Assembly: GCA_006503475.1 (NCBI GenBank)
Contig: RSEH01000332.1
Coordinates: 1 to 44,402 of the forward strand
Length of the DNA: 44,402 bases
Origin: Stentor roeselii
Taxonomy: Eukaryota; Ciliophora; Heterotrichea; Heterotrichida; Stentoridae
Direction: 5' to 3'
The notes under the pieces were generated by a model. It ran no database searches and had not been told where the DNA came from. It saw only the letters and a program-made list of their open reading frames with translations. Positions within the stretch are counted from its first letter, which is position 1, and each line of letters opens with the position of its first letter. Shown here in pieces: positions 1 to 42,347 of this stretch. The position numbers and the translations under genes were made by a program.

Positions 1-392
1 TCCTTCTTGTTTTAATATCTTCATCTGTCTTCTTAGCGCTTCAAACAATAATTGTGATTATTCCTTATGAAATAGTAGAGAAGTATTCACCTATAATAGA
101 CAGAGTTGTAATTTTATTCGTACTCAGTAATATAATTGGAATATTTGGGATTTTTTTCATAAAGACCTATCTACTATGGACAGCTTTGATTTTAACGATG
201 GGTAATATTGTCGGAAAATTCATGTTTTTCATCCAATACTATTCAATCGGAGTGACCATAGCCTTAGATTTTATAAACATTCTGATATATCTGTCAATCA
301 TATTCCAAATAAAAAGCACTCAAAGCTCAACGAATAAAAACCAGAAAAAACTCCTAAATCAACTGATTTTCAAGATCTTTTCATTTAGTTAG
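1..392 (+). CDS. 3' end of a multi-pass membrane protein (partial)
   Basis: The frame is open from base 3 to a TAG stop ending at base 392, giving about 129 residues; the start lies beyond the left edge. The visible part is very hydrophobic, with about four stretches able to cross a membrane: the extreme N-terminal piece, one after the sequence SPIIDR, one around TYLLWTALIL and one around LDFINILIYLSII. It ends in a short polar, lysine- and asparagine-rich tail. I recognise no family motif. The GTG at 54 is not the real start, because the frame continues upstream without a stop. Codon use is AT-rich but otherwise like its neighbours. Confidence 0.7.
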   Translation, partial: LLVLISSSVFLALQTIIVIIPYEIVEKYSPIIDRVVILFVLSNIIGIFGIFFIKTYLLWTALILTMGNIVGKFMFFIQYYSIGVTIALDFINILIYLSIIFQIKSTQSSTNKNQKKLLNQLIFKIFSFS

Positions 393-520
393 AAAGACTA
401 ATTAAATCAATAAATCTCAGTCTAAATCTCCAAATCCATTCCTTAAAAACCTTCCAGAATCAAGATAAAACCAATCAAGTACCTAAACACCTCAACACTC
501 TATAAACCCTATCTTAATCT

Positions 521-1282
521 CTAGTTATCATTATTTACCTCTAATCTACTCGCAGACCCAACACTTGAAGATCTTCGATTTTTAAAAATAATCATAAATC
601 CAACCCCTCCAACAAAAAGTGCGATTTCAATAGCAATTGCAATGGCTGGGCCATGACTAGCACAGATGTCAAAGTCATCGTCATTTGATCCAGCAACATC
701 TTCACAGTCTCCGAATTTGGCTTCAGTTGCACCGAACCATGCAGCTAGAGCTGCAGAATGAAGAAGAATTGTGAAAATAACTATGAAATACACTAAACAG
801 TCTTTCCAAATCTTCCTACCTTTTAGTATGAAACAAATCAAAATTGTCCAGATTACACAAAATGATAGAGCAAAGCTTTCTAGAACTACGAATGCTACTC
901 CACCTTGGTACAGTCGTTCTATTGTGTTTTCCCATCCTTTTATGTCGTAATCTTTAGCTTCTTTGAGAATTTTAGAGAAATAAAGACCTTCCCATTTTCC
1001 TTGGCACCCTCCACACTTAAGTATTCCAGCTCTCCACCTGAACTGGCCTTTGCCTTGAATGGCCCACCTCGGCGTTGACAAAGACCCAATCATAACACAA
1101 ATAATCCCGATAACTAAGATGATGAATGATAAAAACCAAAACTGAAGCGTAAACTTATAAACTTTGTTAGAGTCTGAGTCTTGATTAGCAGCTTTAAGAT
1201 GTGACCTCGCGCTAGATTCAGAATTGAGTATATCTTCTTCATCTTTCAAGATTTTTAAGTCATGATTATCCTCCTCAGTCAT
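521..1282 (-). CDS. Four-TM membrane protein, claudin/PMP22-like topology
   Basis: A 253-residue protein starting at an ATG and ending in TAG. The N-terminal 43 residues are acidic and polar and probably cytosolic. Four hydrophobic helices follow, at roughly 45-68, 127-153, 161-182 and 211-232. Between helices 1 and 2 is a long loop with tryptophans and a C-G-G-C pair (after GILK), and the loop between helices 3 and 4 has two more cysteines. A long first loop with Trp and two Cys recalls the claudin/PMP22/stargazin superfamily, but the W-GLW-C-C signature is not matched exactly, so this is only topology-level inference. The C-tail is short, basic and serine-rich. Function unknown. Confidence 0.75.
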   Translation of the reverse strand: MTEEDNHDLKILKDEEDILNSESSARSHLKAANQDSDSNKVYKFTLQFWFLSFIILVIGIICVMIGSLSTPRWAIQGKGQFRWRAGILKCGGCQGKWEGLYFSKILKEAKDYDIKGWENTIERLYQGGVAFVVLESFALSFCVIWTILICFILKGRKIWKDCLVYFIVIFTILLHSAALAAWFGATEAKFGDCEDVAGSNDDDFDICASHGPAIAIAIEIALFVGGVGFMIIFKNRRSSSVGSASRLEVNNDN

Positions 1283-1434
1283 TTTATGAATTAATGTCAG
1301 GAAATAAAGCCAAAAAAAGCAGTTAAGCCTAAAACAGATTTAAAAAATTTCAATAATTATTTCATAGAATTGATATCATTCAACCAATTAAAGAAATCAA
1401 GTTAAAGTTTACAATTCTCATTAACCATCTTAAA

Positions 1435-1917
1435 CTATCCCTTATTAAACTTACTTAATTTGATTTCAAGTTTTTCTATTTTTATGTCTTTTTTTTCTCG
1501 AGAGCTTCCACGTAAAAGGGACATAAGACCAAAGGTCTCACTAAAACTGTTGGTTTTCGGTCTAAATTTAAGTCTTGCGACCGTGTAATTCTTTTTAGAA
1601 CTTTTCTGAAGCTCTTCAGTTTTGAACTTGAAGGTGTTCTTAACGCTTGCTGGACTTAAGTCGATTTCAGGGACTTTAAATGGTTTTATCACGATTTTTT
1701 TTGTGTTTTGTCTTGGCGAGATTTGATAGGATGGGAAGAACTTTTCAAGTTTTGTTGCTAGGAACTTCTTTTGATTGATTAACGAAGTGTCCATATAACT
1801 TGATTTGGTCTTTGATCTTTTTTTACTTGCGAATGAACGACTCAGTAGTTTATTAAATAATTTGTTTATGGACCGATTTTTTGATCTTGGACTTAGAACA
1901 TCGCTTTGATCAGCCAT
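1435..1917 (-). CDS. Small basic protein, unknown
   Basis: A 160-residue ORF from ATG to TAG. It is strongly basic and serine-rich (runs such as SKKRSKTKSS near residues 31-40) and has no hydrophobic segment or cysteine motif. Several S-P sites (near residues 9 and 67) could be kinase targets. It sits between two other minus-strand genes, with 152 bp to the gene downstream of it and about 110 bp to the end of the PI3-kinase gene upstream. The composition would suit a cytoskeleton- or nucleic-acid-associated protein, but I recognise no family. Confidence 0.6.
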   Translation of the reverse strand: MADQSDVLSPRSKNRSINKLFNKLLSRSFASKKRSKTKSSYMDTSLINQKKFLATKLEKFFPSYQISPRQNTKKIVIKPFKVPEIDLSPASVKNTFKFKTEELQKSSKKNYTVARLKFRPKTNSFSETFGLMSLLRGSSREKKDIKIEKLEIKLSKFNKG

Positions 1918-2028
1918 TAGGCTAATTATAAGGATTTAAGGTTTTGTGAAAGGTATTTTTTAATATTTTTTTTTGTGATCATTAATTCTCAGAACTATCT
2001 ATTATTTAATTACACATAACCTTGATAT

Positions 2029-5000
2029 CTATCTCCAAACATGGATCGCATTATCAATACTTCTGAAATAGTTATTCAAGGCATTTTCAATCTCTGCAAT
2101 AAACTTGCTGCTAGCTTCCTTTTCAGTGAGTCTCATACTAAGCATTTCTCTTAAATATTTGATATCATCTCGATTTTTTAATTCAGGCATTCCAGCTGAA
2201 ATCATTAGAAGAAAAAGATTGATAAGCCTTTTCCCTTGTTTCCTGACATAGTTAAAAGCTTTGCAGCAGTAATCTTTAAATATCTGAAAACGATAGCCAT
2301 CCTTACCATCCATCACGTAAGCCATTTCTTGAGTAAGGACGAATCCACTTCTCTCTCTTTTGATACCGAATTTACTTTTGAAATTCCCTAAAAAATGGCC
2401 GAAGTCAATATGAAATAGATGCCCATTGTTGGTTAACATGATATTTCCATTGTGTCTATCTCCGATACCTAATACATAAGTTGCTACACAATACCCAGCA
2501 CAGCTCCTAACAAAATTATCAAAAGCTTTTTCAGTGATCTCTTCACTTTCTCCATTTTTCTCAAGTATATAATCCCTTAAAGTATTTTCCTTAAGTGCTC
2601 CAAACTTTCCATGTAAATTATGAATATCAGCAGTAGTCTTTGAATTCATGACAATTTCAATCATTCCAGACTGGTCTCCAGTTGCGACAACAAGATAAGG
2701 TTTCATTCTCAAGTCGAGTCCATTTTCAAGCCAAATGGTATCCATGACGGTGATCATTTGAAGAGTGACTATGTCTTGTCTTAGGTCGTCTCCATCTTTG
2801 AAAATGATTTGAATGAACTGTGAAGGAATTTCTGAATTTCTCATCGACATAAATAACGGCATCTTCTTTGACTTCATGATTCGACATTTTCCACCATCAA
2901 AGTCTTTCACTTCCATTGTTGAGTTTATTGGAAGGATGCAGGGCGTGTTGAAATGATTCACGAATTGTTTTATTACTGTTGGAAGGTATTCTCTTCTTTG
3001 CTCGTATTTTGGCTTTTCAGCTAGGATGTTACCCATGTTTGTTAGATTTTTTACCATGCAAAGTTCTTTAAACAATTCTTTCCTATATTCCCCACAAAAA
3101 TTCACAAATTGTTCTAAAAACAGTCCAAATCTCTCAGCAGTTGCTTTAACATGCAACTGACTTCTAATTCCCCAATAAATCGCATGGCCTACCTGAAAAG
3201 GGTTTTTTAAGCTTCTTTCAAGTAGCATTTCACTTAAAACAGAGAAATGACAGCATTCAAATGCTAAAGCTTGTATCAACTGCGGACTATACATGGCTAA
3301 ATCTTCGTCTGATAATTGGCTGACTCTTCTGACTGCATAAAGACGCACATTTTCATCTGGGTAGTCCGCGTTTAATAAAGCTAAAGCGTCTTCTGGCTTC
3401 ATTAGACTCCAGACGTTTAACACCTTGTAGGCCTCTTGAACTTGCAATGGGTGGGTCCAGTCAACTGACTTTAGAAATAAAGGCAGAGCGAGAGGAAGGG
3501 TTTTATAATGATTCCTACAAATAAACAATAACTTTTTATCCTCAGCATGCAAATCTTCCAAAGGATCAGTCATCAAAACCTTTTCCAAATAAGCAAGTTG
3601 TTCAATCTGAGGTCTAGCCTCCTGCAGTTTTTTATCATCCTCAGCACTAGCATCATTTCCAAAAGATCCAATAAGCGAAATATTATAATTCGCCAAGCTA
3701 CTTTTGCTCTTAATAGTAATAGTCGTATTCCTATAAGGTTCAGCCAAGCTTTTATACATACAATTCAAATACGAGAAATCCTTCAAACTCCAACAAACTT
3801 CCTCATTATCAAAAAGATCAAACTGCAAATAAATCCTGCAATACTCAAGAGTTCCCTTGACTTTCTTCTCATAATGATCAGTCTGCACCGCAAAAAAATC
3901 CTGCATACAAGCCAATCTTTCCTCAACTTTATAAAACGGCCAAATATTCATCTCCTGCAAGCCAGTACGAAGGACTCCAAATTCATCAAACAAAGCTCGA
4001 CATGAGCATCCAATTAAAAAACTATGTCCATTAGCCGAGACTGCAAAAATATTAACTCCAATTCGAGTTTCTTTAGGAAGGTCAGAAATTTTAACAGAAA
4101 AATTTATCCATTCCATGATTCTCGCTGAGTAGTTAAAAGGGCAAAATTCAGTTCTTTTTAAAGTATCTCGAATAACCGCATCTCCATAAATGAGCATCAC
4201 GTCAAAGCTGAGAAGATACGGAACAGCTGGAAGTGAATACTCAAGAGCAAGTTCATTTGCAGCTGTACTTTCTGCAGAGTGATTCAGATAAGAAGACTTT
4301 TTAGAATCGGTTGAGTTGCGGGTCATCATTTTAGAGATTTTGCTATATTTGATGAAAGGGACATTTGAACGTTTTTCCATTGATCCGGTGCTTCGACGAC
4401 GACCGTGACCGTGGTCTTTAGAGGACTTTACCTTTGGCTTTACTAGGTACTCTGGAGACTCGGTACCGTTGTTGGTCGCGATGCCTTTAAAGGCTTCTAA
4501 GAATAACTTGTACAAGTTTTCTACTCCGCAGAGACGAGCTCGGAAAGGCCAGTCACATTCTCCTGAAAAAGAGAATTTTTCAGGGTTTTTACCTTTTAAT
4601 AAAGCTTGGTTCGCTTCTTCTCGAAGATTTGATGGGTTTAATGAGTTTAACTTGAAAATTCTAGGCTTTTGGAGAAAGTTTCCAGATTTTTTCTCTTCTT
4701 GGGAAGAGTTGTGATGGAACAGGAAGTCTTTTTTTAGGCTTAGGTCGTCGGAAGGGGAGATTAAGTGCTTGTCGAGGTTTAGGTTGTTTTTTGGAACTTC
4801 GATCAGGTTTACTTCCATTAGTTGAGAACCTCGGAGAACGCTTCGGACGTATCGGTAGGCCAGAAGTGGAAAGTTTCCTGTGAAGTACTCACGTCGGCCT
4901 TTTACTTTGAAGGTTAAAATGTTGTTTGGGTCTTTTGGAGCTATTTTTACACGGTGTTCTTTGTAGGCTTGTCTTGACATTGTTTTTATTGACTCGTTGA

Positions 5001-5463
5001 CTGTGCTAATCAAACAAGCCTTGAATGAAATAGTTTTACTCGACCGATTAAGACTAATAGATCCAAAACTTTCATCTTTATTCTTCACCGAAAAAGACCC
5101 AGGACCCGAAGACGCTCCTTCAATATAATCCGAAGCATTAACAACTATTTTGATATCCGTGACATTAGAAAAGGCAGAACTTAATTCTCGAGAAGTAGTG
5201 AAAGCAGGGTATTCAGTAGTATAAGACCTTACAAGATGTGGCCAAAGAGCGCGCTTTTGATATCTTTTACATTCCAAAGACTCAAAATACCATCCAGTCA
5301 AATCAAACCCTTTCAAAGCCTGGACCTGTTTGATTTCGTTTTCAATTTCTTCAGCCTGGTCGTGATCAGCGATTTCTTGAAGAAAAGATTCATGAGTGGA
5401 GAGGTTATAAGTGAAAAGTTGTTTTTGTTCTGGGTCGAGAAAAAGGACATATTTTTGATCCAT
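2029..5463 (-). CDS. Phosphoinositide 3-kinase, class I-type catalytic subunit
   Basis: Phosphorylates the 3-OH of phosphoinositides at membranes. The 1144-residue protein starts at MDQKYVLF; the frame is open 27 codons further up, but without an ATG. In order: N-terminal region; a Ras-binding-type domain ending near 180-222 (LTFKVKGRREYF, YRYVRSVLRG); a linker rich in Ser, Lys and Asn; a C2 domain around 305-600; a PIK helical domain around 640-800; the lipid kinase domain around 880-1130. Visible kinase motifs are GDDLRQD (about 888), the catalytic loop GIGDRHNGN (about 1001) and DFGH (about 1021). The activation loop KSKFGIKRER (about 1030-1040) is the basic type that lets class I enzymes use PI(4,5)P2. 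No p85-binding domain is obvious. It is divergent from the gene at 5532, with 68 bp between the start codons. Confidence 0.95.
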   Translation of the reverse strand: MDQKYVLFLDPEQKQLFTYNLSTHESFLQEIADHDQAEEIENEIKQVQALKGFDLTGWYFESLECKRYQKRALWPHLVRSYTTEYPAFTTSRELSSAFSNVTDIKIVVNASDYIEGASSGPGSFSVKNKDESFGSISLNRSSKTISFKACLISTVNESIKTMSRQAYKEHRVKIAPKDPNNILTFKVKGRREYFTGNFPLLAYRYVRSVLRGSQLMEVNLIEVPKNNLNLDKHLISPSDDLSLKKDFLFHHNSSQEEKKSGNFLQKPRIFKLNSLNPSNLREEANQALLKGKNPEKFSFSGECDWPFRARLCGVENLYKLFLEAFKGIATNNGTESPEYLVKPKVKSSKDHGHGRRRSTGSMEKRSNVPFIKYSKISKMMTRNSTDSKKSSYLNHSAESTAANELALEYSLPAVPYLLSFDVMLIYGDAVIRDTLKRTEFCPFNYSARIMEWINFSVKISDLPKETRIGVNIFAVSANGHSFLIGCSCRALFDEFGVLRTGLQEMNIWPFYKVEERLACMQDFFAVQTDHYEKKVKGTLEYCRIYLQFDLFDNEEVCWSLKDFSYLNCMYKSLAEPYRNTTITIKSKSSLANYNISLIGSFGNDASAEDDKKLQEARPQIEQLAYLEKVLMTDPLEDLHAEDKKLLFICRNHYKTLPLALPLFLKSVDWTHPLQVQEAYKVLNVWSLMKPEDALALLNADYPDENVRLYAVRRVSQLSDEDLAMYSPQLIQALAFECCHFSVLSEMLLERSLKNPFQVGHAIYWGIRSQLHVKATAERFGLFLEQFVNFCGEYRKELFKELCMVKNLTNMGNILAEKPKYEQRREYLPTVIKQFVNHFNTPCILPINSTMEVKDFDGGKCRIMKSKKMPLFMSMRNSEIPSQFIQIIFKDGDDLRQDIVTLQMITVMDTIWLENGLDLRMKPYLVVATGDQSGMIEIVMNSKTTADIHNLHGKFGALKENTLRDYILEKNGESEEITEKAFDNFVRSCAGYCVATYVLGIGDRHNGNIMLTNNGHLFHIDFGHFLGNFKSKFGIKRERSGFVLTQEMAYVMDGKDGYRFQIFKDYCCKAFNYVRKQGKRLINLFLLMISAGMPELKNRDDIKYLREMLSMRLTEKEASSKFIAEIENALNNYFRSIDNAIHVWR

Positions 5464-5531
5464 TTGTATAAAACAAGACTTAAACTTAGAATTTTTTCGA
5501 GTTTTGGATATTTTTAAATTATTAATAAACA

Positions 5532-7730
5532 ATGGCCATTTCACCTCAGCTTGTAATCATGCCACAAGAGCCTGTCCGTGATAAGTTATTGTGGAGGGTT
5601 CAATCTGCGAAATCGATTGGAATGACGAAGTGCTCGACTATTTCTGGATTAAAGACAAAAAAATTCAAAGACCTTCTTAGTACTAAAAATGTTCCTCATG
5701 TAATAATTCATGAGAAAGAAAGACTTTATGAAGATAACCTTACTCTCAAAATCACTGTAAACTCACTCAATGAACAAATGACTAAACTAAAAACCAAGCT
5801 CCAAGCAATGAAAAACTCGGCGAAACGACAAGAAAAAAACGAAAATTCAGAAAACTTTTACATCCACTTGAAAAAGATTATAAAAGACCTAAATAAAAAA
5901 CTTTCAGACAAAGAATTCGAAAACAATGAGTTAAAAAAAAACCTGAAAATCACCAAATTTAAAGAAATAGAAAGAGAGCTCAATATTTATAAAGCAGAAT
6001 GTGACAGGCTAAAATTTCTTTTGAAAGGCTTTATTGATAAATCTGATTCAAATTCAAATATTTTCGACTTGGAACAAGAACTTTACGCAAAGCAGGGTAA
6101 AATAACAGCACTTCAAAAAGATAACTCTGAGCTGCTTAAAGAAATTTCTAGACTGAAAGAAGAAAATTCTCAATTTAAAGATAGTCACCCAAGACAAAGC
6201 AAAAGAAGCCCTTTAAGGACTTTTGAAACTTCAACCAATTGCAATAAATGCCAGGAATTGCAGGTCAATCTTGATCAGGCTAATTTTGAACTGGAAACTA
6301 ATGAAAAAAAATTTTTAACTCAGATCGAATCCGAAAAAGCTAAGATAAAAGAACTAGAAGAAGAATACCTAGATACATACAAAAATTGTGAAGACCTTAA
6401 AAAATCAGTTGAAACTCTCACAAAACAACTTTCCGAGGCTCGAAGCCAGACTTTCAACGCCGCAATTTTAACCGAAAAACCCAACGAAATTCCTACAAAG
6501 ACCTCAAAGCGTCCTCCAAAGTTATTCAAAAGAATCCACAAAATAATCAAAGAAAAGTTCATGTTTTTAACAGTTTTTCTATCTTTTTTAGATAAAAACA
6601 ACACTGGATACACTTATGAAGAAGACCTGAAAAAAGGAACAGCTTGGAATGGAAAAAAACTGAAAGACTCAGAAATTTCCCAAGCTTTGGATTTGATTCA
6701 ATGCAAGTCTCTTCAGATTCCAATAAAACTTTTAGAAGAATGGTATGAAAAGTTCACCTTTTCTGATAGTGACTCGGAGTCTGATAATTTTAAACAAGTT
6801 AAAAAAGTTGGAACTTTGACAAAATCGACGCAGTTTGAACAAAATTTCAATCAAAATGTGAAAGTTTCTCAGGATTTGATTCAGGATTTTGGATTTATGT
6901 TTGAACAAATCAAAATGTTGATGCTTGAAAGAAATATTCCTAGAAATAAAGTTTTTTTACATTTGTTTAAAGATGACTTTAGTCCTGATCAAATTGTTTC
7001 GGTTAAAATGTTGAAGGATTCGTTTGTTGCTTTTTTCACTGAGATTAATACTGAGGGAGTCGTTTTGAAGTTTTGTGAGTTTTTAGTTGAAAATGGAAAA
7101 GATTTTGGGAAATTTGAGACTGTTTTTAAAGAAGTTTATAGAAAATTAAATAGGCTTTTACCTGAATGGAAAATCATCGACAAATACCGAGCCCACTTAG
7201 AAATAGGTAAAACTCTTCTAAAGCACCAAAGCGAAATCCTCGAACTCTGCTTATTAAACCAAGAAACAACCAACAACTCTCTTCCCTTAAATATTTTTTC
7301 AGATATTCTGCAAGGTTTTGCAGACATAACCTCAGATTCCTTAGAGCATTTATATTTGATTTCATTCCAAAAGACCAAAAAAGTAAAAACAGTGAATTTT
7401 TTGAAAGTTTTTGAAGGACTTGAAGAAAACGAGGAGTTTTTATTAAGATTCAAGAGAAAATATGCAGAAATCATAAAAATCATCAGAAGTAAGATGAAGA
7501 ACAGTCTTGACGATCTTGATAATTTCATCGGATTCAGTTCAGAAATCGGAATTCCAGTGAATCAATTCACCAGTTCACTTCAAACACTTGGAATCAAGGC
7601 AAGTCCTGACTTCATCAATGAACTTACTCAAGGCCAGCCAAAATGCGACTTGAGTTTATTTAAAGCAATTTTGACAGAAGACCTGAATGAGTCATATGAA
7701 AGTGAGTTTAACTTTAACGAGTTAAATTAA
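5532..7730 (+). CDS. Coiled-coil protein with an EF-hand-like loop
   Basis: A 732-residue protein from ATG to TAA. The first ~45 residues are non-helical. Residues ~65-300 are heptad-rich coiled coil (Leu/Lys/Glu, for example ENLTLKITVNSLNEQMTKLK). Near residue 351 an EF-hand-like loop (DKNNTGYTYEED) follows a hydrophobic helix; position 12 is Asp instead of Glu, so calcium binding is uncertain. The remaining ~370 residues are helical, without an obvious family. The design resembles ciliary or basal-body scaffolds, but that is an inference. The stop codon lies 10 bp from the stop of the convergent gene at 7741. Confidence 0.85.
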   Translation: MAISPQLVIMPQEPVRDKLLWRVQSAKSIGMTKCSTISGLKTKKFKDLLSTKNVPHVIIHEKERLYEDNLTLKITVNSLNEQMTKLKTKLQAMKNSAKRQEKNENSENFYIHLKKIIKDLNKKLSDKEFENNELKKNLKITKFKEIERELNIYKAECDRLKFLLKGFIDKSDSNSNIFDLEQELYAKQGKITALQKDNSELLKEISRLKEENSQFKDSHPRQSKRSPLRTFETSTNCNKCQELQVNLDQANFELETNEKKFLTQIESEKAKIKELEEEYLDTYKNCEDLKKSVETLTKQLSEARSQTFNAAILTEKPNEIPTKTSKRPPKLFKRIHKIIKEKFMFLTVFLSFLDKNNTGYTYEEDLKKGTAWNGKKLKDSEISQALDLIQCKSLQIPIKLLEEWYEKFTFSDSDSESDNFKQVKKVGTLTKSTQFEQNFNQNVKVSQDLIQDFGFMFEQIKMLMLERNIPRNKVFLHLFKDDFSPDQIVSVKMLKDSFVAFFTEINTEGVVLKFCEFLVENGKDFGKFETVFKEVYRKLNRLLPEWKIIDKYRAHLEIGKTLLKHQSEILELCLLNQETTNNSLPLNIFSDILQGFADITSDSLEHLYLISFQKTKKVKTVNFLKVFEGLEENEEFLLRFKRKYAEIIKIIRSKMKNSLDDLDNFIGFSSEIGIPVNQFTSSLQTLGIKASPDFINELTQGQPKCDLSLFKAILTEDLNESYESEFNFNELN

Positions 7731-7740
7731 GTACCTATTC

Positions 7741-8787
7741 TTATAAAATCAAACATTTAGAACATACTGATGATCCTTTAGGGTCTTCTTTGTTGTTTTT
7801 TTCGTAGGTTTTAGATTCAGTTAGTGAATTCTTAATCATTTTTTTTTCAGTTGTCGAGTTTTTCACATCATGTTGATCTTTTCCTTTCTCCTCACTTTTT
7901 CCTTTGTTTTCATGATTTTTTCCATGATCATCATGATTTTTTCCCTTCACTCCATCAACCTCTTCATTTTTTTCTTGTTTTTTTCCTTTCACCCTCTCTT
8001 GATTCATCTTTTCCTCAATCAAATCACTAGGCAAGTAGCTCACAGCCTGTTCAACAATTCCAGGAGAGTCAACCTGATGATGATAAAGGTCACTAGGTGT
8101 AAATTTCTCAGGTTCTTTAATTTCCTTTAAAATCTCTTCATTACTAGAACAACTTGAACTACTAGAGCCATCCAAGCTATTTTCCATGACAACAGCTTTA
8201 TCAAGTTCATTCTTCTCATAATCCTCTCGAATTTCCTCATAATTAAACCCAGGCTCTTCTCTCTTCACAGGAGCAAAAGCATCGTCAAGCATTTGAAGGT
8301 CATTAACAGTGTCTTCATCACTAAAAACTTCTTCATTTTCCGAGTCTTTTCCCTCCAAGTCTTTACTAATAAACTCAAAGTCGAACTTTGGAGGGTTTCG
8401 GTCTTTTTCGCTGAATTCTCGACTTTTAGGAGCTGGCTTTAAAATGGGCGAGGATAAAGAAAACTTGTTGAAATCCTGGTCTTCGGACTCGATTTTTATT
8501 TTTAAACCTTCTGCTGGGGTGTCTGACAAGGATGAACTTGAACTACTTGAATGACTTGAGACGTTTGAAGGCTCTGCTATTGTAATTATTGGGTTTGGTG
8601 GAAGTTTTGTGGAGTTTGAAAAGTCAGGATTTGGTTTAGTTGGAGAAAAGTTAGTTGAAGTTAAATCGTGATTGGACTCTGAAGACTCAGAACTTGAGGA
8701 TTTCGATGAAAAACTTTGATTTTCTTCAGATTTCTTGGAAATGTTTATATCGATAGAATTCTTCACATTTTTGACGATTTCTCCCAT
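7741..8787 (-). CDS. Acidic low-complexity protein with C-terminal CaaX box (CLIL)
   Basis: A 348-residue ORF from ATG to TAA. It is rich in Ser, Glu, Asp and Lys with serine runs (SSSSSSSLSD near 82-90, SSSSSCSSNEE near 210) and a Lys/Glu/His-rich tract near 270-310. It has no folded domain that I can name and no membrane helix. The last ten residues include three cysteines and the protein ends C-L-I-L, a CaaX box whose final Leu is the class favoured by geranylgeranyltransferase I. This suggests a disordered, phosphorylatable protein anchored to a membrane by a prenyl group; that is inference from the last four residues. The N-terminal MG lacks the Ser/Thr at position 6 typical of N-myristoylation. 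Confidence 0.7.
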   Translation of the reverse strand: MGEIVKNVKNSIDINISKKSEENQSFSSKSSSSESSESNHDLTSTNFSPTKPNPDFSNSTKLPPNPIITIAEPSNVSSHSSSSSSSLSDTPAEGLKIKIESEDQDFNKFSLSSPILKPAPKSREFSEKDRNPPKFDFEFISKDLEGKDSENEEVFSDEDTVNDLQMLDDAFAPVKREEPGFNYEEIREDYEKNELDKAVVMENSLDGSSSSSCSSNEEILKEIKEPEKFTPSDLYHHQVDSPGIVEQAVSYLPSDLIEEKMNQERVKGKKQEKNEEVDGVKGKNHDDHGKNHENKGKSEEKGKDQHDVKNSTTEKKMIKNSLTESKTYEKNNKEDPKGSSVCSKCLIL

Positions 8788-9759: not shown

Positions 9760-9928
9760 CTATTAATCAATAATAAATCAATATATTCCGTAAAAATAAG
9801 TCCACCACCACATCTCTCCACATCAAACCCCTAAACCCATGCACCCAACTCCCTAAACCAAGCATCCAAACTTACTTCCAAACTACTTCAAAATCCCAAA
9901 TTTCCATCCATATCTAAAATCCTAACCA

Positions 9929-11353
9929 TTAATCATTCATTTCCTTTCCATCCCACATTTCACTTCCAGGTCTCCAAAAATGAATCCCTCTATCAGCCGC
10001 TCCTTTAAAAACCAGACAAGCGACAAGCCCATCAACAAAAATCGGTTCATTAACAATGCACCCACCTTCAGTAAATTCCTGAACTTCTCGAACATTTAAA
10101 GTTTGTAAATTGACAACATTGCATTTTTTCATCTGTTGAGAGACTTCATTTTGACCTGCAAAGACAAGAACTTCATGTTCGCTGAACCTGACACTTCCCA
10201 GGACCATGCTTTGAAAAGTAAGGTTGAGTTCAAGAGTGACCCAGATGTTTTTTTCAATGAGGAACTTTTCACAGGACCTGGAGACTAAAGAGCCTCCATA
10301 TCGCCCGCCGAATAAATAAATTGATTTCTCGTTTTCATGGACCACGCCAGTTGATGAGTCTCGAGTTCTGTTCGTGGATGAAAGGATTTCCCAGATGTTG
10401 GCTTCTAAGGAAAACCTTTCCACTCGGTTTGTGTATTTGTTGTCATGGTCGCAACCACCGATGACGTAGACGTAGTCTTCGAAGTAAATCATGCAATGAT
10501 TCGCTCTTCCGAAGTGCATGTCTGGGAGTTGCTTGACTTGGAGACCAGGAAGTGAAATAAAAGTAGCTCGATGAAGACCTTTAGAATCTGCATCAACTCT
10601 ACCTCCACAGACAACGATTCCATCAGGGACGATAATACTTCTTGAAAAATGAGGAATCGTGTAATCCTTCACTTCTTCCTTACGACATCTAAACTCTTTA
10701 TCATAAAGATAAACGTATTTAGAGTTCCATTGAATCCAATGCAATACCAAAGGCCTTTCCTGAACTTTTCTCGGGTACTTCAAACCAGCAACGACCTTAG
10801 CCAAGTCTTTTCCCTGAAAATTTAAAACAAGTGATCGAAGAGTTTCACTGAATTTCAAGATTTTTTCCCTGCATTTCGAGTAAATGTAAGAAGAGCTTTT
10901 TTTTTGTAGTCGGGAAAAAAATCGAAGGAGTTTGTTGATGATTTCTTCGATTTCGCTTTTTTGTTCTTTGGCTTCTTGGAAGGCGAAACGGGAAAGGTAT
11001 TCAAGATTGTGAAGCTTTGGAACCATCTCAACTATCAGGTCTTCTATGCTTGAAAATGTGTGAGTGCTGTGAAGAGGCACGCAGAGTACGCAGAGAAGGG
11101 TGTTGCAGGTTGTGCAAACTAGTCTTTGCTTGTGGAAATGGAACTCACATTTGTCCCAGGAACCGATTTCGATTGTTGCTTGCTCTTTGATGTCGACTTG
11201 GATTGGAACTGGCTTTTTTGTTGATGGGAGCACAGAAGTAGCTAAACTCTCAACACAAGCATTACAAACCTTCTTCCCCTTGATCTCCGTGAAGCTTTCA
11301 GTCCTTTCAAAAATCGTTTTGACATCACATAAAAAACAGTGAGAAGTGGTCAT
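9929..11353 (-). CDS. B-box zinc finger protein with kelch repeats
   Basis: A 474-residue protein. I chose the ATG giving MTTSHCFLCD; the open frame extends only five codons further to a TTG. An N-terminal zinc-binding element uses C6, C9, C30 and C33. A B-box follows with C69, H72 (or H74), C80, C83, C88, C91, H95 and H98. Residues ~105-190 form a coiled coil, and the last ~250 residues hold kelch-type blades (for example VYVIGGCDHDNKYTNRVERF and IYLFGGRYGG). The order zinc finger, B-box, coil, beta-propeller is TRIM-like, although no complete RING is visible, so ubiquitin ligase activity is doubtful. A protein-interaction role is likely. It is divergent from the PKA gene, with 52 bp between the starts. 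Confidence 0.88.
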   Translation of the reverse strand: MTTSHCFLCDVKTIFERTESFTEIKGKKVCNACVESLATSVLPSTKKPVPIQVDIKEQATIEIGSWDKCEFHFHKQRLVCTTCNTLLCVLCVPLHSTHTFSSIEDLIVEMVPKLHNLEYLSRFAFQEAKEQKSEIEEIINKLLRFFSRLQKKSSSYIYSKCREKILKFSETLRSLVLNFQGKDLAKVVAGLKYPRKVQERPLVLHWIQWNSKYVYLYDKEFRCRKEEVKDYTIPHFSRSIIVPDGIVVCGGRVDADSKGLHRATFISLPGLQVKQLPDMHFGRANHCMIYFEDYVYVIGGCDHDNKYTNRVERFSLEANIWEILSSTNRTRDSSTGVVHENEKSIYLFGGRYGGSLVSRSCEKFLIEKNIWVTLELNLTFQSMVLGSVRFSEHEVLVFAGQNEVSQQMKKCNVVNLQTLNVREVQEFTEGGCIVNEPIFVDGLVACLVFKGAADRGIHFWRPGSEMWDGKEMND

Positions 11354-11405
11354 TATATCTTCCTTCAAATGGAACTTTAAAATAATTCAAACCTTCCTCA
11401 TATAA

Positions 11406-12377
11406 ATGAAACCAGCCAGAAACAAGTTCAACTTAGACGACTTCGAAATCCTTTCCACTCTCGGAACAGGTACCTTCGGGCGAGTTCGTCTCGTGAAGTT
11501 AAAAGCGAATCCAAAGTACCCTCCTTTCGCTTTGAAGATGTTAAAGAAAACTGTCGTGTTGAAATTGAAGCAGCTGGACCACATCAAGTCGGAAAAGTCA
11601 GTCTTAGAGCGAGTGAAGCATCCTTTTATCATCACCTTGCTAGCGACTTTCCAAGACTCGACCTTTATCTACATGTTGCTCGAGTATATCTGTGGAGGTG
11701 AGCTTTTTTCCAGACTTCGTCGAGAAGGAAGGTTTTCAAATGATGTGGCTTTGTTTTATATCTGTGAAATCGTCTTGGCTTTTGAGTATCTTCATTCTTT
11801 GAACATCGCTTATCGTGACTTGAAGCCGGAAAATATTTTGATTGATAAAGAAGGACATGTCAAAATCACTGACTTTGGGTTTGCTAAACATTTGAATGAT
11901 AAAACTTATACTTTGTGTGGTACTCCTGAGTATCTTGCTCCTGAAATCATTCAGAATAGAGGACATCATTTTGCGGTTGATTGGTGGGCTTTAGGGATTT
12001 TGATTTATGAGATGATTGCTGGGTTTCCTCCTTTTTATGATGAAACGCCGGTTAGGATTTATGAGAAGATTTTATCGGGAAGAATTGAGTTTTCTAAGGT
12101 TTTTAATAAAGTGGTAAAAGACATCATCAAGAAATTCCTTCAAGAAAACCCAAACAAAAGATACGGCTGTGGTGTAAAAGGAATCGATGCTGTAAAACGG
12201 CACAAATGGTTTCGTGGAGTAGACTGGACCGTAGTCCTCCGAAGAGAGATCCCTCCACCCTGGGTCCCTGAAGTGAGAAGCATGGACGACACTCACTTTT
12301 TTGACAACTACCCAGATTCAGTAGACTTTGTACCGCCACCTCCTCCTGACATCAATGCATTATTTAAAGATTTTTAA
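11406..12377 (+). CDS. PKAc: cAMP-dependent protein kinase catalytic subunit (PKA-C, AGC family)
   Basis: A Ser/Thr kinase of 323 residues, starting at the first ATG. Glycine loop G20-T-G22-T-F-G25; ATP lysine K44 in FALKMLKK; catalytic YRDLKPEN with D138; DFG at 156-158; activation loop TYTLCGTPEYLAPEI with T169 at the place of PKA Thr197. The C-tail wraps to an end of FKDF, the hydrophobic motif that terminates true PKA-C subunits, which argues against PKG or Akt. It lacks an N-terminal myristoylation site. The stop is 3 bp from the stop of the convergent K+ channel gene. A regulatory subunit is not in this window. Confidence 0.95.
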   Translation: MKPARNKFNLDDFEILSTLGTGTFGRVRLVKLKANPKYPPFALKMLKKTVVLKLKQLDHIKSEKSVLERVKHPFIITLLATFQDSTFIYMLLEYICGGELFSRLRREGRFSNDVALFYICEIVLAFEYLHSLNIAYRDLKPENILIDKEGHVKITDFGFAKHLNDKTYTLCGTPEYLAPEIIQNRGHHFAVDWWALGILIYEMIAGFPPFYDETPVRIYEKILSGRIEFSKVFNKVVKDIIKKFLQENPNKRYGCGVKGIDAVKRHKWFRGVDWTVVLRREIPPPWVPEVRSMDDTHFFDNYPDSVDFVPPPPPDINALFKDF

Positions 12378-31745: not shown

Positions 31746-32094
31746 TTAGAATTATCGTAGTTGAGTTAGCGTTGGCTTTGGGGGTATTTGATTAGGTTTT
31801 TTGTATTCAGTAAAGTTTGGAGTTTGGAAAAATCAATAATCTTTTCGGGTAATTTTTATTAGATTTTAATTGTTGATTCTTCCATATAATTCTCCTTTAA
31901 ACATTTAAGAGACTTATCCTATTAATCTAAAATTTCCAACAATCAATTCACTCTCCCATAAAATCTCCCAACCCACAAACCTTAAAAAAATTCCCTCCAA
32001 AAAAAACCTTCAACAAAAAACCATTCTATTCTTTTCACAACCAGTCCAAAACTTCTCCGATCCAGTTAAATTCATCATTCCAAATAATCCAAAA
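31746..32094. other. Intergenic spacer between PRA1 and the 32095 gene
   Basis: 349 bp. The left third is T/G-rich and the right half is strikingly C/A-rich on the + strand with almost no G, an example of the skew switches seen across the window. No gene or RNA seen. Confidence 0.6.
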
Positions 32095-33114
32095 ATGCTT
32101 CGTAGTTCAGTTTGTTCCTCAGAAGCAGGACTAAGTCCTCACACGCATGAGCTGAAAGAGTTAGTCGACGACCTCGAGCTGAGTCTTGACGTGAACAAAA
32201 GTCTTTTCACCGACATAATTTCCTCAAAAAAGGCGAAAAGCCAGCAAAGTTCAGAAGAAACTCAGACACAACTGCTGATTTCAAGCAAGTCTTTAGAAAT
32301 CGTTCAGTCTGAAAACCACAGAATCCAGGAAGCGCTGACAAGGATGAACTGTGAAATCGCTCATGCGAATACATTGATAAGCATTTCAGAAGAAAGAGCT
32401 TTGCAAAGCCGAAAAAGAAGGAAAGACTTGCATAATAAACATTCCGCTGAATTGATTGGATTAAAGGCTCAGTTGCATAAAAAGGAGGAAGAAATAAGGA
32501 AAATTGAAAAATATGCATCGACTCTTGAAGATCTTTTGTCGAAAAGTCTTAAAAAGGAAACTCTTAATCCTGCGGATATTATTAGTGAAGGGAAAAAAGT
32601 CATCTCGAAAGTTTCGAAACAACTTATTGAGGCTGAGGTTTTGAAAAATGTTGAAGAGAAAAAATGTAGGGATTTGGAACTTGAATTGAAAAAGATTCAA
32701 AATTCGGTTAAAGTTGCTAATCCAGCTGTTACTTTAACCACTGATCAGATCCTAAAGAAAAACTTTCTACTCGACTTAAATTTTGAAAACTTCTGGTTCG
32801 TAGGTTCAGCAATGTTAGACGATAACTCAGAATCAATCCGTTCCTCAGACAGTTCAGTCCAAGACCTTCAATTCCCAAACAAATTCGAGTTTTCAAGCAA
32901 GCCAAAGATAAAAGTTCCAAAACTAAACTTCCCAGGTAGTCCTCAAAAGCAATCAAAAAACGAGTCACCTGAGGTGAAATTAAACCGTCTTGAACTAGCC
33001 TACCAAATAAAATGTGAAGAAATCCAGTCCCTTCAAAGAGTTCTGACAGACCTTCAAGCAATTGAAATGACTTTATCCAAAAGTATCGACCCAGGTAGTT
33101 TTTCAAATTCTTAA
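32095..33114 (+). CDS. Coiled-coil protein, unknown
   Basis: A 339-residue protein from ATG to TAA. Residues ~15-215 form an almost continuous coiled coil (for example HTHELKELVDDLELSLDVNK, ELIGLKAQLHKKEEEIRKIE), broken by a short linker. Residues ~230-285 are Ser/Pro/Lys-rich, followed by a short C-terminal helix with Leu/Gln heptads (LNRLELAYQIKCEEIQSLQR). The sequence resembles ciliary or centrosomal coiled-coil proteins only in general character. Its stop codon lies inside the first unit of the 44-bp tandem repeat that fills the gap to the CHID1-like gene. Confidence 0.82.
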   Translation: MLRSSVCSSEAGLSPHTHELKELVDDLELSLDVNKSLFTDIISSKKAKSQQSSEETQTQLLISSKSLEIVQSENHRIQEALTRMNCEIAHANTLISISEERALQSRKRRKDLHNKHSAELIGLKAQLHKKEEEIRKIEKYASTLEDLLSKSLKKETLNPADIISEGKKVISKVSKQLIEAEVLKNVEEKKCRDLELELKKIQNSVKVANPAVTLTTDQILKKNFLLDLNFENFWFVGSAMLDDNSESIRSSDSSVQDLQFPNKFEFSSKPKIKVPKLNFPGSPQKQSKNESPEVKLNRLELAYQIKCEEIQSLQRVLTDLQAIEMTLSKSIDPGSFSNS

Positions 33115-34270: not shown

Positions 34271-34441
34271 GAGTTTAGAGGATTTAGGATTTTAAGAGAT
34301 TGAGATTTGTATCTGGTTTTAGGAAATTTTAGATGATATTGAGGAATTTATTAATTTCAGCGATATGAGATTATCTTGAGGAGATCATATTATTTAAGTA
34401 ATACTGAGAAGATCTTGAGAATTCATATTAATGGACTATCA

Positions 34442-35143: not shown

Positions 35144-35165
35144 TAATCATCACCTTCTTATAAAC

Positions 35166-35933: not shown

Positions 35934-35958
35934 CCATCTTGTTAACTATTCTACCTAC

Positions 35959-36531: not shown

Positions 36532-36907
36532 ATTTTGTTATTGAGGATTTTTTTGGAATGGAGGAGGATTATAGTGGGTTTGAGGAAGTGAATGATTGAT
36601 ATTGGAATAGTTTTGGTTGTGAATATTAGAGAGATTTTGGTTTTAGAGAGAGATTATGATTTTTTTAGATTTATAGTTTTATGATGAAAATTCTTTAGAG
36701 AATATTAAAATTGAAATTTGATGGTGTTTAATAGTCTAGTAGATACTATTCAACTAAAAACCTTGAAAATAAAATAATTAGAGGTCAAATAATTCTTACA
36801 GTGATAAATCGCTTAAAACCTAAAACAATTAATGAAATTCGTATCACTCAATTTCTTTCTAAAATCATATAAACATAAATACTTTAATTCTTCACATTAT
36901 ATAAGAA
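36532..36907. other. Intergenic, divergent spacer between p24 and XRCC4-like genes
   Basis: 376 bp. The left part is G-rich on the + strand (GAGG, TTGGAATGG runs) and the right part is AC-rich. A short imperfect palindrome AATAGTCTAGTAGATACTATT-like lies near 36728. No coding or RNA gene seen. Confidence 0.5.
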
Positions 36908-37603: not shown

Positions 37604-37784
37604 AAGTTTTTAGTGTTATTTGAATAATGGTTTCGAATAACTTTTGAGGTTTTGTCTTAGTTTAGTGTTTTTTCAATAGAGATTAACTCCAGTTAAATAA
37701 ATACTTTCTTATTTACTTTAAATTTGAATGCTTGTTGAATTTGTAACATTCATCGTCTTAAATCTTGAAATAAAAACTTCGTTA

Positions 37785-41029: not shown

Positions 41030-41425
41030 CTAAAAAGTGGAATTAAATGTACTTAACCCTGGAAGCTGCACTGAACTTTGAGTGCTTCTCACAGAGGGTA
41101 AATTAACATCAGCAGCCGTAAAAGGTCCTGCAGGTATAGAATACTCTTCATTTCTCTCACTCTCGAAAAGTTCGAGTAACAGCAATACAAAGCTCTTAAG
41201 ACACGAAAAATCAAGCCGATTAGGAGCATTTTTGATATGCAATGTCTTATGTGAGGAAAGTTGACTTGCATGTTTGAATGACGCTGAACATCCAGGGAAG
41301 GAACATTTCAAGGGTTTCTCACCAGTGTGAATAGTGATATGCTGGAAAAGGTTCTGCTTAGAAGTCAACTTTTTGCCGCAGATGCCGCACTTGTAAGTCA
41401 AATGCGATGGTTTTGCGTGTTTCAT
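41030..41425 (-). CDS. Small two-finger C2H2 zinc finger protein
   Basis: A 131-residue ORF from ATG to TAG. Two C2H2 fingers lie near the N-terminus: finger 1 with C13, C16, H29, H33 and finger 2 with C41, C46, H59, H63 (the C-x4-C form), joined by the classic TGEKP linker at 34-38. The linker is typical of DNA-binding fingers, so a transcription factor or nuclear regulator is likely. The remaining ~65 residues are Ser/Leu-rich with no known domain. Two fingers give limited DNA specificity on their own. The start codon is 24 bp from that of the divergent 41450 ORF. Confidence 0.85.
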   Translation of the reverse strand: MKHAKPSHLTYKCGICGKKLTSKQNLFQHITIHTGEKPLKCSFPGCSASFKHASQLSSHKTLHIKNAPNRLDFSCLKSFVLLLLELFESERNEEYSIPAGPFTAADVNLPSVRSTQSSVQLPGLSTFNSTF

Positions 41426-41449
41426 TATTATAAGGAGTGCTAGGAATAG

Positions 41450-41695
41450 ATGGATATCGAGATATGGCTGAAATGTCTGGATATCTCAAGAATTTTTAAA
41501 GAATCGACTCAAGAAGGGTCTGAAGAAAATTAGAAGCAAGTCAAAAATCATGCATGTTCCAAAGCAGGACTTAAAGATTTAAAGGTTTTTGGAAAACTTC
41601 AGAATTTTAAAGAATTGTCGACCCAAGTCAGTGATTTTGATATTAAGGATGATGATGCAAATGGAAAATGTTTGGACTTGGTTTCATTTTATTAG
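41450..41695 (+). pseudogene. SAM-like ORF interrupted by an in-frame TAG
   Basis: From an ATG at 41450 the frame reads 27 codons (MDIEIWLKCLDISRIF...), meets TAG at 41531-41533, then continues open in the same frame for 53 codons (KQVKNHACSKAGLKDLKVFG...) to TAG at 41693. The two halves together resemble a SAM domain: an E-x-W-L-x-x-L first helix and a D-L-K-x-x-G...L-x-x-F-K-E-L last part. No 15- or 16-nt GTAA...AG intron covers the stop; the only GT nearby would give a 16-nt segment that breaks the frame. Either a decayed small gene, a readthrough TAG, or chance. Confidence 0.35.
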
Positions 41696-42347
41696 TGAAT
41701 AGGGTTTTTTGAATTGAGAGCTTGATCAATTTTAATTTTATTCAAGATTTTAGGATTTCGGACTGGGTTAGATTTAGTTTATGAGGGATTTTGGAATTTA
41801 AAGATATAATTACTTTGGAGTTTTAGGGATGTTTGGGATTCTGGAAATTTTAGATATGGTTCAATCTGAGATAAGGTTGGGGAGTCTCAAGTATTTTTTT
41901 TTAAAGAAAGATCATTTATTATATTAGTTTTTTGGGTAGAAGGTTTAGTATTTTATTATTTCAGACATTTATATAAGAAAATGATTAAAGTTAACCTAAT
42001 CAAATTATATTATTAGTATTTCATAAATTTCAATATTCTCAGCATACCTCTAAATCGTTTTCTGCTTCGATAAAAAGTTTAATTCAAATCAGGTTTATTT
42101 TCCTAGTAGCAAAGTAAATCTATCAAAGCATATCAAAATTAGAAATACTCAAAAATTTCTATATCTAAAAGAGATTCCAGAAAGTTCTATCAACTAACTC
42201 TTAAATAATTCTTTGAAATCCTCTAATTAACTTATATTAAAAGTCAAATAAGTAATTTGTATGAGTTTGAATCATTCTAAAACTAATAAAATCAAACCTT
42301 TAAAACAAGCATCTGATAATAATTCGATAAGATTTTCTACAATATAA
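41696..42347. other. Intergenic spacer before the right-edge gene
   Basis: 652 bp, AT-rich. The first ~250 bp is T/G-rich (GGATTTTGGAATTT-type), the rest A/C-rich. Nothing recognisable; no RNA gene or repeat seen. Confidence 0.5.

Follow-up and report, generated by a model that had tools for sequence, protein, structure and literature searches.

Strand composition of the window

The window analysed here (44,402 nucleotides of Stentor roeselii DNA, contig RSEH01000332.1) carries open reading frames (ORFs) on both strands, including a minus-strand PI3K gene and a series of genes with recognisable Pfam domains (Table 1); introns are tiny (15 nt), a feature pointing to a heterotrich. The initial annotation held that the plus strand flips repeatedly between G/T-rich and C/A-rich blocks, citing six G:C counts over 60-bp pieces; on recount all six are exact, and each of its three pairs straddles a fitted step from G/T-rich to C/A-rich sequence (at 19478, 7157 and 5004). 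The spacer at 31746-32094, also cited as switching, likewise contains a step, fitted at 31877 but placed only to within 115 bp.

As a control, codons were shuffled 100 times, preserving every protein and the codon usage of each ORF. Relative to these shuffles, skew variance at 60, 100, 300 and 500 bp was in excess by z = 13.5, 15.0, 19.1 and 14.2 for GC skew, by 18.2, 21.3, 20.1 and 17.1 for the keto measure (G+T-A-C), and by 7.3, 7.6, 6.0 and 3.3 for TA skew. A good part of the raw keto variance at 100 bp (0.0351) is already present in the shuffles (0.0248); the excess over them is synonymous by construction. The claim of the initial annotation was thus not refuted by the synonymous-shuffle permutation test that it had called for, with GC and keto excess standing at 13-21 SD.

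Table 1. Steps in strand skew and related features of the window (GT-to-CA, up-step; CA-to-GT, down-step; called at z≥4.5)
Feature	Position	z	Support width	Setting or composition
Counted pair 1	19441-19500; 19501-19560			G14:C5; G2:C15
Counted pair 2	7081-7140; 7201-7260			G13:C1; G7:C15
Counted pair 3	4741-4800; 5041-5100			G21:C6; G6:C16
GT-to-CA step	3502..3503	5.0		inside minus-strand PI3K gene (PI3K domains matched)
GT-to-CA step	5004..5005	6.7	12 bp	inside PI3K gene; pair 3
GT-to-CA step	7157..7158	5.4		inside plus-strand ORF 5529-7727; pair 2
CA-to-GT step	8377..8378			sole down-step; position unrefined
GT-to-CA step	9800..9801	4.7		between ORFs
GT-to-CA step	11228..11229	5.8		kelch/B-box gene (Pfam)
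GT-to-CA step	12113..12114	6.4		protein kinase gene (Pfam)
GT-to-CA step	13392..13393	6.4		ion-channel gene (Pfam)
GT-to-CA step	16417..16418	4.9		TruB/dyskerin-type gene (Pfam)
GT-to-CA step	19478..19479	5.4		IQ-motif gene (Pfam); pair 1
GT-to-CA step	23643..23644	4.6		SPT6-like gene (Pfam)
GT-to-CA step	25041..25042	5.8		SPT6-like gene
GT-to-CA step	31877..31878	5.0	115 bp	spacer 31746-32094
GT-to-CA step	32748..32749	6.3		ORF 31909-33111 (coiled-coil-like by eye, from translation)
GT-to-CA step	34433..34434	4.5		just beyond 3' end of minus-strand ORF 34442-35146
GT-to-CA step	36728..36729	5.7		between ORFs
GT-to-CA step	41953..41954	4.5		between ORFs
Illustrative unit	4454..5554			~550 bp each side of 5004 step (extent from 55-step mean profile, unfitted here); left arm low in plus-strand C, right arm low in plus-strand G

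Sharp steps mostly of one polarity

Sharp steps were called in the window, where 16 are GT-to-CA, and in 20-26 other stretches of this genome (together 260,687 bases, ~0.6% of 44.4 Mb); we refer to GT-to-CA changes, read 5' to 3' on either strand, as up-steps and to CA-to-GT changes as down-steps. At z of at least 4.5 there are 55 up-steps against 11 down-steps, the corresponding counts being 95 and 59 at z≥3.5, 26 and 2 at z≥5.5, and 11 and 0 at z≥6.5, and with synonymous sites alone the z≥4.5 calls number 43 up and 10 down. The median support width of the 55 up-steps is 30 bp. Skew therefore steps sharply from GT to CA and then relaxes slowly; the repeated flips of the initial annotation are real and structured, but they are not the simple alternation it described. 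Counts in 300-bp windows are nearer even (80 up, 57 down), as predicted from a gradual return.

The same asymmetry appears in the skewness of skew increments, which is +0.42 to +0.52 at lags of 120-180, 0.43 +/- 0.11 inside single genes of both orientations, and 0.54 +/- 0.12 to 0.62 +/- 0.15 at distances above 450 bp from any ORF end; it was -0.03 +/- 0.05 and -0.08 +/- 0.10 in E. coli, 0.07 +/- 0.09 and 0.14 +/- 0.06 in phage G, and -0.07 to -0.17 in three codon shuffles. Within genes, the template strand alone gave 0.12 +/- 0.15 at 120 bp and 0.26 +/- 0.10 at 180 bp, and the coding strand alone 0.26 +/- 0.10 and 0.23 +/- 0.12, each weaker than the strands combined.

Might such steps arise from chance, amino-acid composition or assembly error? 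Lone 60-bp counts can be extreme, and at z≥3.5 the controls do yield steps (5 to 12 per shuffle, six in E. coli, one in phage G). At z≥4.5, however, they are nearly empty: five codon shuffles together yield one step, and 50 kb from each of E. coli and phage G yield none, even with noncoding sites added; steps at this threshold are present in 17 of the 27 Stentor sequences (absent from the other 10), and neither control genome has a comparable skew autocorrelation. We consider this reading already refuted, its remaining probability being next to nil.

Averaged over the 55 steps, the flanking arms mirror each other with opposite sign; the effect is strong over 200-300 bp and has vanished by about 525-650 bp. 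The mean profile also dips, for no evident reason, 1.1-1.3 kb right of the step. The autocorrelation of skew crosses zero near 335 bp, reaches a minimum near 550 bp and returns to zero near 1.1 kb, and a simulation with sources placed at random and tapered 700-bp arms recovers it, such that true periodicity is unneeded. Increment skewness in that noise-free simulation is 1.9, larger than observed. The switches do act on units smaller than genes, as the initial annotation had it.

A replicative origin would have the steps mark fixed points of fork convergence, with dispersed initiation giving the gradual return and the lagging template losing C. A terminus-type switch of skew does have this polarity, and the replication-linked N-domains of vertebrates are also sawtooth in form with one kind of step sharp, although their polarity is opposite and they are far longer. 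Convergence every few kilobases, with effects that fade within about 600 bp, would however imply an implausible replicon size, and we regard this explanation as improbable.

Both DNA strands and noncoding DNA carry the signal

Around up-steps called on coding-strand C sites alone, the template C fraction (C not after G) is 0.144 on one side (1103 sites) against 0.500 on the other (1085 sites), and around down-steps the two values are 0.231 and 0.353. Steps called on one strand hence predict cytosine on the other, so the process works at the level of the DNA strand, whether or not the sequence is coding; together with the excess over codon shuffles, this bears out the proposal of a strand-asymmetric, largely synonymous switch. 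In noncoding arms, C/(C+T) is 0.132 against 0.404, these bases having also helped to call the steps; past stop codons, C/(C+T) follows the coding C of the adjoining gene end with a rho of 0.50 (n=65), and before ATGs the rho is 0.485 (n=104). Oppositely oriented neighbours share a DNA-strand signal (+0.113 +/- 0.056 at 30-60 bp, +0.073 +/- 0.035 at 90-150 bp and +0.052 +/- 0.023 at 150-210 bp), which agrees, though noisily, with the suggested independence from gene orientation; the signal is about zero at 15-30 and 210-300 bp, and a cruder test of it found nothing.

Selection on codons, through tRNA reuse or mRNA structure, could in principle generate runs of C-ending codons. Such runs are conspicuous, and in some classes pairs of sites for the same amino acid are more strongly correlated than those for different ones (0.126 against 0.071 for F/C; 0.139 against 0.079 for fourfold C/T). 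For HNDY pairs, however, the values are nearly equal (0.204 same, 0.195 different); Leu and Arg first positions and every C/T class tested intercorrelate, noncoding flanks follow the coding signal, and the template strand mirrors the response with a similar context rule. Tests of five pairs of paralogues, 44-70% identical, show no shared block positions (r from -0.12 to 0.21, none outside the shift null). We therefore find codon selection very improbable; tRNA reuse in particular is disfavoured by the correlation between different amino acids and by the noncoding flanks. A protein-domain cause of the blocks was rejected on the same paralogue comparison.

There is also a component anchored on genes: averaged over genes, Y-site C is about 0.50 over the initial 300 bp and has fallen to 0.30 by the gene end, and flank G/(G+A) is 0.218 before the ATG and 0.332 after the stop (117 ORFs with a start). 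Unicellular fungi are reported to have opposite GC skews at gene 5' and 3' ends, with a coding strand that is on average C-biased 5' and G-biased 3', reaching fourfold sites, promoters and UTRs, and for which a mutational explanation has been proposed (PMC3315797). This type of gene-end bias is present in S. roeselii. The fungal pattern as reported is, however, an average gradient along the gene (PMC3315797), whereas here we find repeated sharp steps, many of them intragenic and only weakly tied to ATGs, which have arms and follow a context rule; there is no single gradient per gene anchored at start and stop.

Steps might be sites of bidirectional transcription initiation, flanked on either side by C-biased coding strands as at the 5' ends of fungal and plant genes. 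The polarity agrees, as does the fall in Y-site C along genes. Up-steps nonetheless show only a weak preference for the region before ATGs (9 within 200 bp upstream, about 5 expected; 0 in the first 100 bp past the ATG, 2.5 expected), and on this account transcription starts fit less well; moreover, 38 of the 55 up-steps fall in ORF interiors, close to the 32 expected from their share of sequence (0.578), and the sawtooth is no weaker at distances above 450 bp from ORF ends. The skew described at plant and fungal transcription starts similarly involves a coding-strand C excess beside a point, but is bound to those starts, unlike the steps here (PMC555766). We judge this explanation unlikely, though deserving of some weight.

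A context rule for cytosine

On both strands, cytosines after A, C or T respond, whereas those after G barely do so or respond oppositely. The slope for C after G is +0.315 +/- 0.049 on the template strand, in the opposite direction, and +0.212 +/- 0.045 on the coding strand, weakly in the common direction; template C after G is 0.490 on the losing side and 0.314 on the other (147 and 169 sites). The strongest context is C before G. The C/T choice responds more than the A/G choice at K/E/Q codons; part of the difference arises because every K/E/Q site is a template cytosine followed by T, which is a weak context. The interpretation in the initial annotation is partly supported; this rule, the arms on both sides of a step and the sharpness in one direction only are additions to it. 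The cause may lie in R-loops inside genes, in breaks or in past DNA joins.

Several simpler descriptions were set aside. Pure keto/amino alternation failed the first twofold-site test, with a short-range Y/R cross-correlation of almost nil; independent C and G fields were dropped on gene-centring and context, the K/E/Q context being weak and the gene-level codon effect opposite; and a TpC preference, apparent over all bases, gives way at coding-strand synonymous third positions, where odds ratios are higher for C and A before the site than for T. Plain cytosine deamination (C-to-T only, with contexts of the same sign) is contradicted by the opposite template response of C after G. Decay of 5-methylcytosine at CpG was rejected, as a profile search of the genome found no C5 DNA methyltransferase (PF00145; control matched in 10 of 14). 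A search for APOBEC_N (PF08210) gave no match, its control being silent too; PF00383 had four matches and PF03167 one.

A proposed model of recurrent breaks with resection

The polarity, antisymmetric arms, both-strand context, noncoding extension and synonymous concentration that we observe could reflect point sources of a strand-specific, context-dependent C/T bias, and we tentatively favour, at somewhat short of even probability, a model that takes these sources to be double-strand breaks (or nicks or gaps) that recur, with resection of 5' ends and deamination. At many points, fixed over evolutionary time, resection would expose 3' single strands, in which cytosines would be deaminated to T, leaving the plus strand C-poor to the left and the minus strand C-poor to the right, across genes and spacers alike; selection would keep protein-changing sites intact, and a preference for C, translational or other, where the process is absent may raise the spared strand. 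The sources could be genome-editing sites, chromosome-fragmentation sites or germline break hotspots.

Support for the polarity comes from yeast, where bidirectional 5' resection is reported to give clusters with mutated C to the left and G to the right of one switch point, the reverse being described as absent or very rare (PMC6786661). Our steps share this polarity in composition rather than in observed mutations; the yeast clusters are fresh, following gamma-induced breaks, whereas ours is an inherited pattern in which C after G behaves oppositely. The same report, in its account of cancers, describes no such order bias and holds that resection does not make the clusters there (PMC6786661).

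The unshared positions of paralogue blocks count against the break model, because its points would need long persistence. The one recent duplication (93.7% identical) lies where strong blocks are few; its C/T and G/A differences are not directionally clustered (p 0.74 and 0.34) and have no strand excess (109 against 104). The model is further weakened by the opposite template response of C after G, the lack of a clear motif or TA preference at steps, the want of an APOBEC_N match, the 10 of 27 sequences with no step at z≥4.5 and the dip in the mean profile. Because the germline nucleus of ciliates is largely silent, a transcription-dependent version would need further assumptions.

The steps could instead be joins, formed where removal of internal eliminated sequences (IESs) cuts the middle out of a smooth germline wave of skew. 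In Blepharisma, about 40,000 IESs are reported, 70% of them intragenic and with a median length of 255 bp (PMC9942856), in a somatic genome of 41 Mb (PMC9942806), or about one per kb. Called steps are sparser than this (55 in 260,687 bases, 16 in the window), though more go undetected; TA is not enriched at the 55 steps (observed/expected 1.05, of low power at a median support width of 30 bp), a search for the PiggyBac domain (PF13843) found no match, its control also being silent, and a cause of the germline wave would still be required. We think it rather unlikely that joins explain the steps.

Strand-asymmetric composition is also described next to the chromosome ends of ciliate nanochromosomes, in Halteria, where the authors discuss deamination of single-stranded DNA (PMC7858049), and in Nyctotherus, where it is mainly a purine skew (PMC2633312); here it takes the form of repeated steps inside genes on long contigs. 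Our literature search found no description of this step pattern among the papers listed, and neither Blepharisma paper (PMC9942856, PMC9942806) uses the word 'skew' in its main text; the second of them reports 46,705 potential alternative telomere addition sites.

We further speculate that heterotrich-like genomes may record sites of repeated breakage, many intragenic and by extrapolation numbering in the thousands, to within a few tens of bases, with strand-specific, context-selective C-to-T change spreading outwards on resected DNA; a doubtful extension as it stands. If the steps are breaks or joins, they could be located to about 30 bp from genome sequence alone, with no experiment, and one could then test at which places germline or somatic DNA of ciliates breaks and whether damage from editing is inherited; were they to coincide with sites of IES excision, fragmentation or telomere addition, damage from somatic editing would reach inherited DNA, or the germline would break there. 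Regardless of cause, it is largely a strand process, and not translation, that shapes synonymous codon choice here over stretches of some 500 bp, such that codon usage read as expression or selection may mislead, and the differing behaviour of C after G provides a fingerprint with which candidate enzymes can be compared.

Sequence at the steps

No clear motif was found at the steps, at low power. Two six-mers are weakly over-represented (GCCTGA, 3 against 0.1 expected; TCAAGA, 7 against 0.9), before any correction for how many were tried. For inverted repeats spanning the steps, the figure is 1.0 seven-mers against 0.43, an excess that may be due to complementary composition.

Skew blocks beyond chance

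The initial annotation had described, from 60-bp hand counts, G/C skew that flips sign within genes, and all six of its counts were reproduced exactly. Across the window (contig C267, complete, of an assembly of 44.4 Mb and 522 contigs), skew variance at 60 to 500 bp was higher than in 100 codon shuffles that preserved every protein and the codon usage of each ORF, with z of 17-21 for a ‘keto’ measure (G+T versus A+C), 13.5-19 for GC skew and 3-8 for TA skew. Another 20 to 26 stretches from elsewhere in that genome bring the data to at most 260,687 bases, with 136 ORFs that have at least 150 codons, or ~0.6% of a single genome. Autocorrelation of synonymous skew (126 ORFs, 26 pieces) was 0.116 at 0-75 bp, crossed zero near 340 bp, reached a minimum of -0.039 ± 0.007 at 525-600 bp and returned to zero near 1.1 kb; 40 codon shuffles gave 0.014 declining to 0, and 50-kb controls gave no more than 0.013 (E. 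coli) and 0.010 (phage G), neither with a negative lobe.

Sharp steps mostly of one polarity

Whichever strand is read 5' to 3', the composition turns sharply from G/T-rich to C/A-rich (‘up-steps’) and gradually back again (‘down-steps’). Increment skewness was +0.42 to +0.52 at lags of 120-180 bp, 0.23-0.25 at 300 bp and about zero at 400-500 bp; inside single genes it was 0.43 ± 0.11 (one orientation +0.48 ± 0.15, the other +0.36 ± 0.16), and over 450 bp away from ORF ends it was 0.54 to 0.62. Three codon shuffles gave -0.07, -0.15 and -0.17, with control values of -0.03 ± 0.05 and -0.08 ± 0.10 for E. coli, and 0.07 ± 0.09 and 0.14 ± 0.06 for phage G.

Called steps in 27 sequences numbered 95 up versus 59 down at a call strength of z≥3.5, 55 versus 11 at 4.5, 26 versus 2 at 5.5 and 11 versus 0 at 6.5 (synonymous sites only: 72 versus 50, 43 versus 10 and 21 versus 2 at the first three thresholds); thresholds and site weights were chosen after inspection of the data, and the controls, run with identical settings, yield hardly any steps at z≥4.5. 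In five codon shuffles the total at that threshold was 1 versus 0, and each gave 3-8 versus 2-6 at 3.5. Synonymous sites of E. coli and phage G gave 2 versus 4 and 1 versus 0 at z≥3.5, and no steps at z≥4.5, alone or with noncoding sites added. Steps at z≥4.5 occur in 17 of the 27 sequences; the window holds 16 up and 1 down, and the four places singled out by the annotation all prove to be up-steps (see table). Position support has a median width of 30 bp, and across the 48 of 55 steps placed to within 63 bp, C+A moves from ~0.40 to 0.60 inside 20 bp with G+C staying within 0.34-0.39.

The mean profile of the 55 steps is antisymmetric, at ~0.5 over 200-300 bp and falling to zero by about 525 bp (right arm) or 650 bp (left arm), and it has a negative dip at +1.1 to +1.3 kb; its inner arms rest on the step-calling sites and are partly circular, as are odds ratios across the steps of 10.9 (coding) and 4.3 (template). 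In a non-circular check, steps were called from coding-strand C sites alone (z≥4; 37 up, 12 down): these up-steps predict template C (G-preceded sites excluded), which is 0.144 on the arm depleted of C (1103 sites) and 0.500 on the spared arm (1085), and the down-steps gave 0.231 (355) versus 0.353 (371). Simulated sources at random positions with tapered 700-bp arms matched the autocorrelation, and we therefore claim no periodicity.

Sites, context and spacers

Between the lowest and highest local classes, the C share at synonymous C/T sites rises from 0.20 to 0.76, Leu CTR/(CTR+TTR) from 0.18 to 0.55 and Arg CGN from 0.20 to 0.67, and fourfold T falls from 0.48 to 0.26; synonymous sites with C on the template strand give the mirror-image response within genes. 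Logit slopes (109 ORFs) by 3' base G, A, C and T were 3.9, 3.2, 2.6 and 1.6 at twofold-type coding sites and -2.8, -2.0, -1.0 and -0.5 at template sites; coding fourfold sites (3.5, 2.05, 1.2, 2.3) follow another order. By 5' base A, C and T, slopes were 0.86, 0.64 and 0.60 (coding) and -0.39, -0.54 and -0.38 (template). After G, the coding slope is weak (+0.21) and the template slope reversed (+0.315 ± 0.049); around the 55 steps, too, C directly after G behaves unlike all other C, and oppositely on the template strand, a possible fingerprint of an enzyme or polymerase.

The pattern extends beyond coding sequence and runs through genes and spacers alike. C/(C+T) 3' of stop codons follows C in the last part of the coding sequence (rho 0.50, p 2e-5, n=65); for C/(C+T) upstream of ATGs, rho is 0.485 (n=104). 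G/(G+A) in these flanks runs opposite (-0.27 after stops, -0.46 before ATGs). DNA outside ORFs of 60 or more codons, which may hide small exons and has no shuffle null, gave 0.049 (C-C), 0.040 (G-G) and about -0.03 (C-G) at the shortest distances. Opposite-strand neighbouring genes have a common DNA-strand signal of +0.113 ± 0.056 at 30-60 bp, +0.052 ± 0.047 at 60-90, +0.073 ± 0.035 at 90-150 and +0.052 ± 0.023 at 150-210 bp, then -0.058 ± 0.020 at 300-450 and -0.069 ± 0.018 at 450-600 bp; a cruder test for such a signal found none (rho -0.07, n=71). Codon selection ranks fourth among the rival explanations.

A speculative model and its rivals

What we observe, then, are points with bilateral antisymmetric arms, and a C/T bias that is strand- and context-specific, largely synonymous, and present across genes and spacers. 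We suggest that step points may break, that 5' ends would then be resected and cytosines in the exposed 3' strands deaminated, that the change would run from C to T, and that the points would persist. Step polarity here is that of bidirectional resection in yeast, which, in the available part of PMC6786661, leaves clusters in which mutated C lies to the left of mutated G, with the opposite order absent or very rare; the same part reports that cancers lack this order bias. Searches of the genome gave four cytidine/dCMP deaminase-family matches, one of the uracil-DNA glycosylase superfamily and none for APOBEC_N, for which the control search was also silent. No C5 DNA methyltransferase-family match was found in the genome, in agreement with the portion of PMC11441545 stating that none of canonical type has been identified in ciliates.

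For the break and resection model it is a weak point that an effect can be inherited only if it reaches the germline nucleus, which in ciliates is mostly silent during vegetative life. Divergent transcription starting at the steps comes first among the rivals. Somatic joins at excised DNA, in second place, seem an unlikely cause, their odds lowered in view of the density of called steps, which falls short of one per kilobase; convergence of replication forks at the steps is third.

As for known relatives, fungal genes are, in the part of PMC3315797 available, on average C-biased at the 5' end and G-biased at the 3' end; a comparable gene-end mean is present here, but 38 of the 55 sharp steps lie inside ORFs. 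Ciliate nanochromosomes, in the source portions available, have skewed subtelomeres. Repeated intragenic steps were not found described in the literature searched.

Duplicated and paralogous genes

In five old paralogue pairs (PI3K, SPT6-like, AGBL; 44-70% identical) block positions do not coincide. Over that much divergence, therefore, the blocks change place, and protein structure does not determine where they lie. A 7.1-kb segmental duplication (93.7% identical by BLAST) has 388 differences in 7,110 aligned bases, 109 C/T and 104 G/A, with no clustering found in their direction (p 0.74 and 0.34). In its more skewed half, differences per cytosine not after G were 41/327 for the losing strand against 46/593 for the spared one (Fisher p 0.025), and rates per pyrimidine site were equal (0.028 and 0.029), as a maintained equilibrium predicts, in one region with few strong blocks. 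The duplication holds a fused P4-ATPase and guanylate cyclase gene; one copy seems to be decaying, given 148 nonsynonymous and 61 synonymous codon differences and 2 stops. Inside the duplication, at least 750 bp in succession carry no differences, perhaps through gene conversion.

Gene models and further features

Gene models were intron-free open reading frames. All three standard stop codons end ORFs of 250 or more codons (TAA 42, TAG 28, TGA 13). A scan for short GT..AG introns peaked at 15 nt (10 cases, with 0-4 at each other length from 10 to 40), and the available part of PMC11441545 gives ~95% of heterotrich introns as 15-nt, so that a heterotrich origin, as implied by the annotation, is plausible. 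A paralogue of the M14 carboxypeptidase gene on another piece (L026) lacks the stop that splits the window's copy, and its frame continues. The genome has 23 tubulin-domain matches in total.

Positions of steps and other features in the window and in further contigs of the genome
Sequence	Position	Feature
Window	1-77	Identical to opposite-strand start of contig C230; contig overlap left unmerged
Window	5004	Up-step
Window	7157	Up-step
Window	19478	Up-step
Window	31877	Up-step
Window	39342-39356	15-nt GT..AG stretch GTAAGAAATAATTAG, probably a tiny intron; in-frame TAG (39354) splits M14 carboxypeptidase ORF
Window	40001-44402	G+C falls to 26-27% in three of the four last full kilobases; long ORF leaving window end, WD40-type matches weak, under curated cut-offs
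Contig C50	6730-13884	Segmental duplication, one copy
Contig C513	155543-162676	Other copy of the duplication
Contig C152	19386-21851	Two adjoining tubulin-family ORFs
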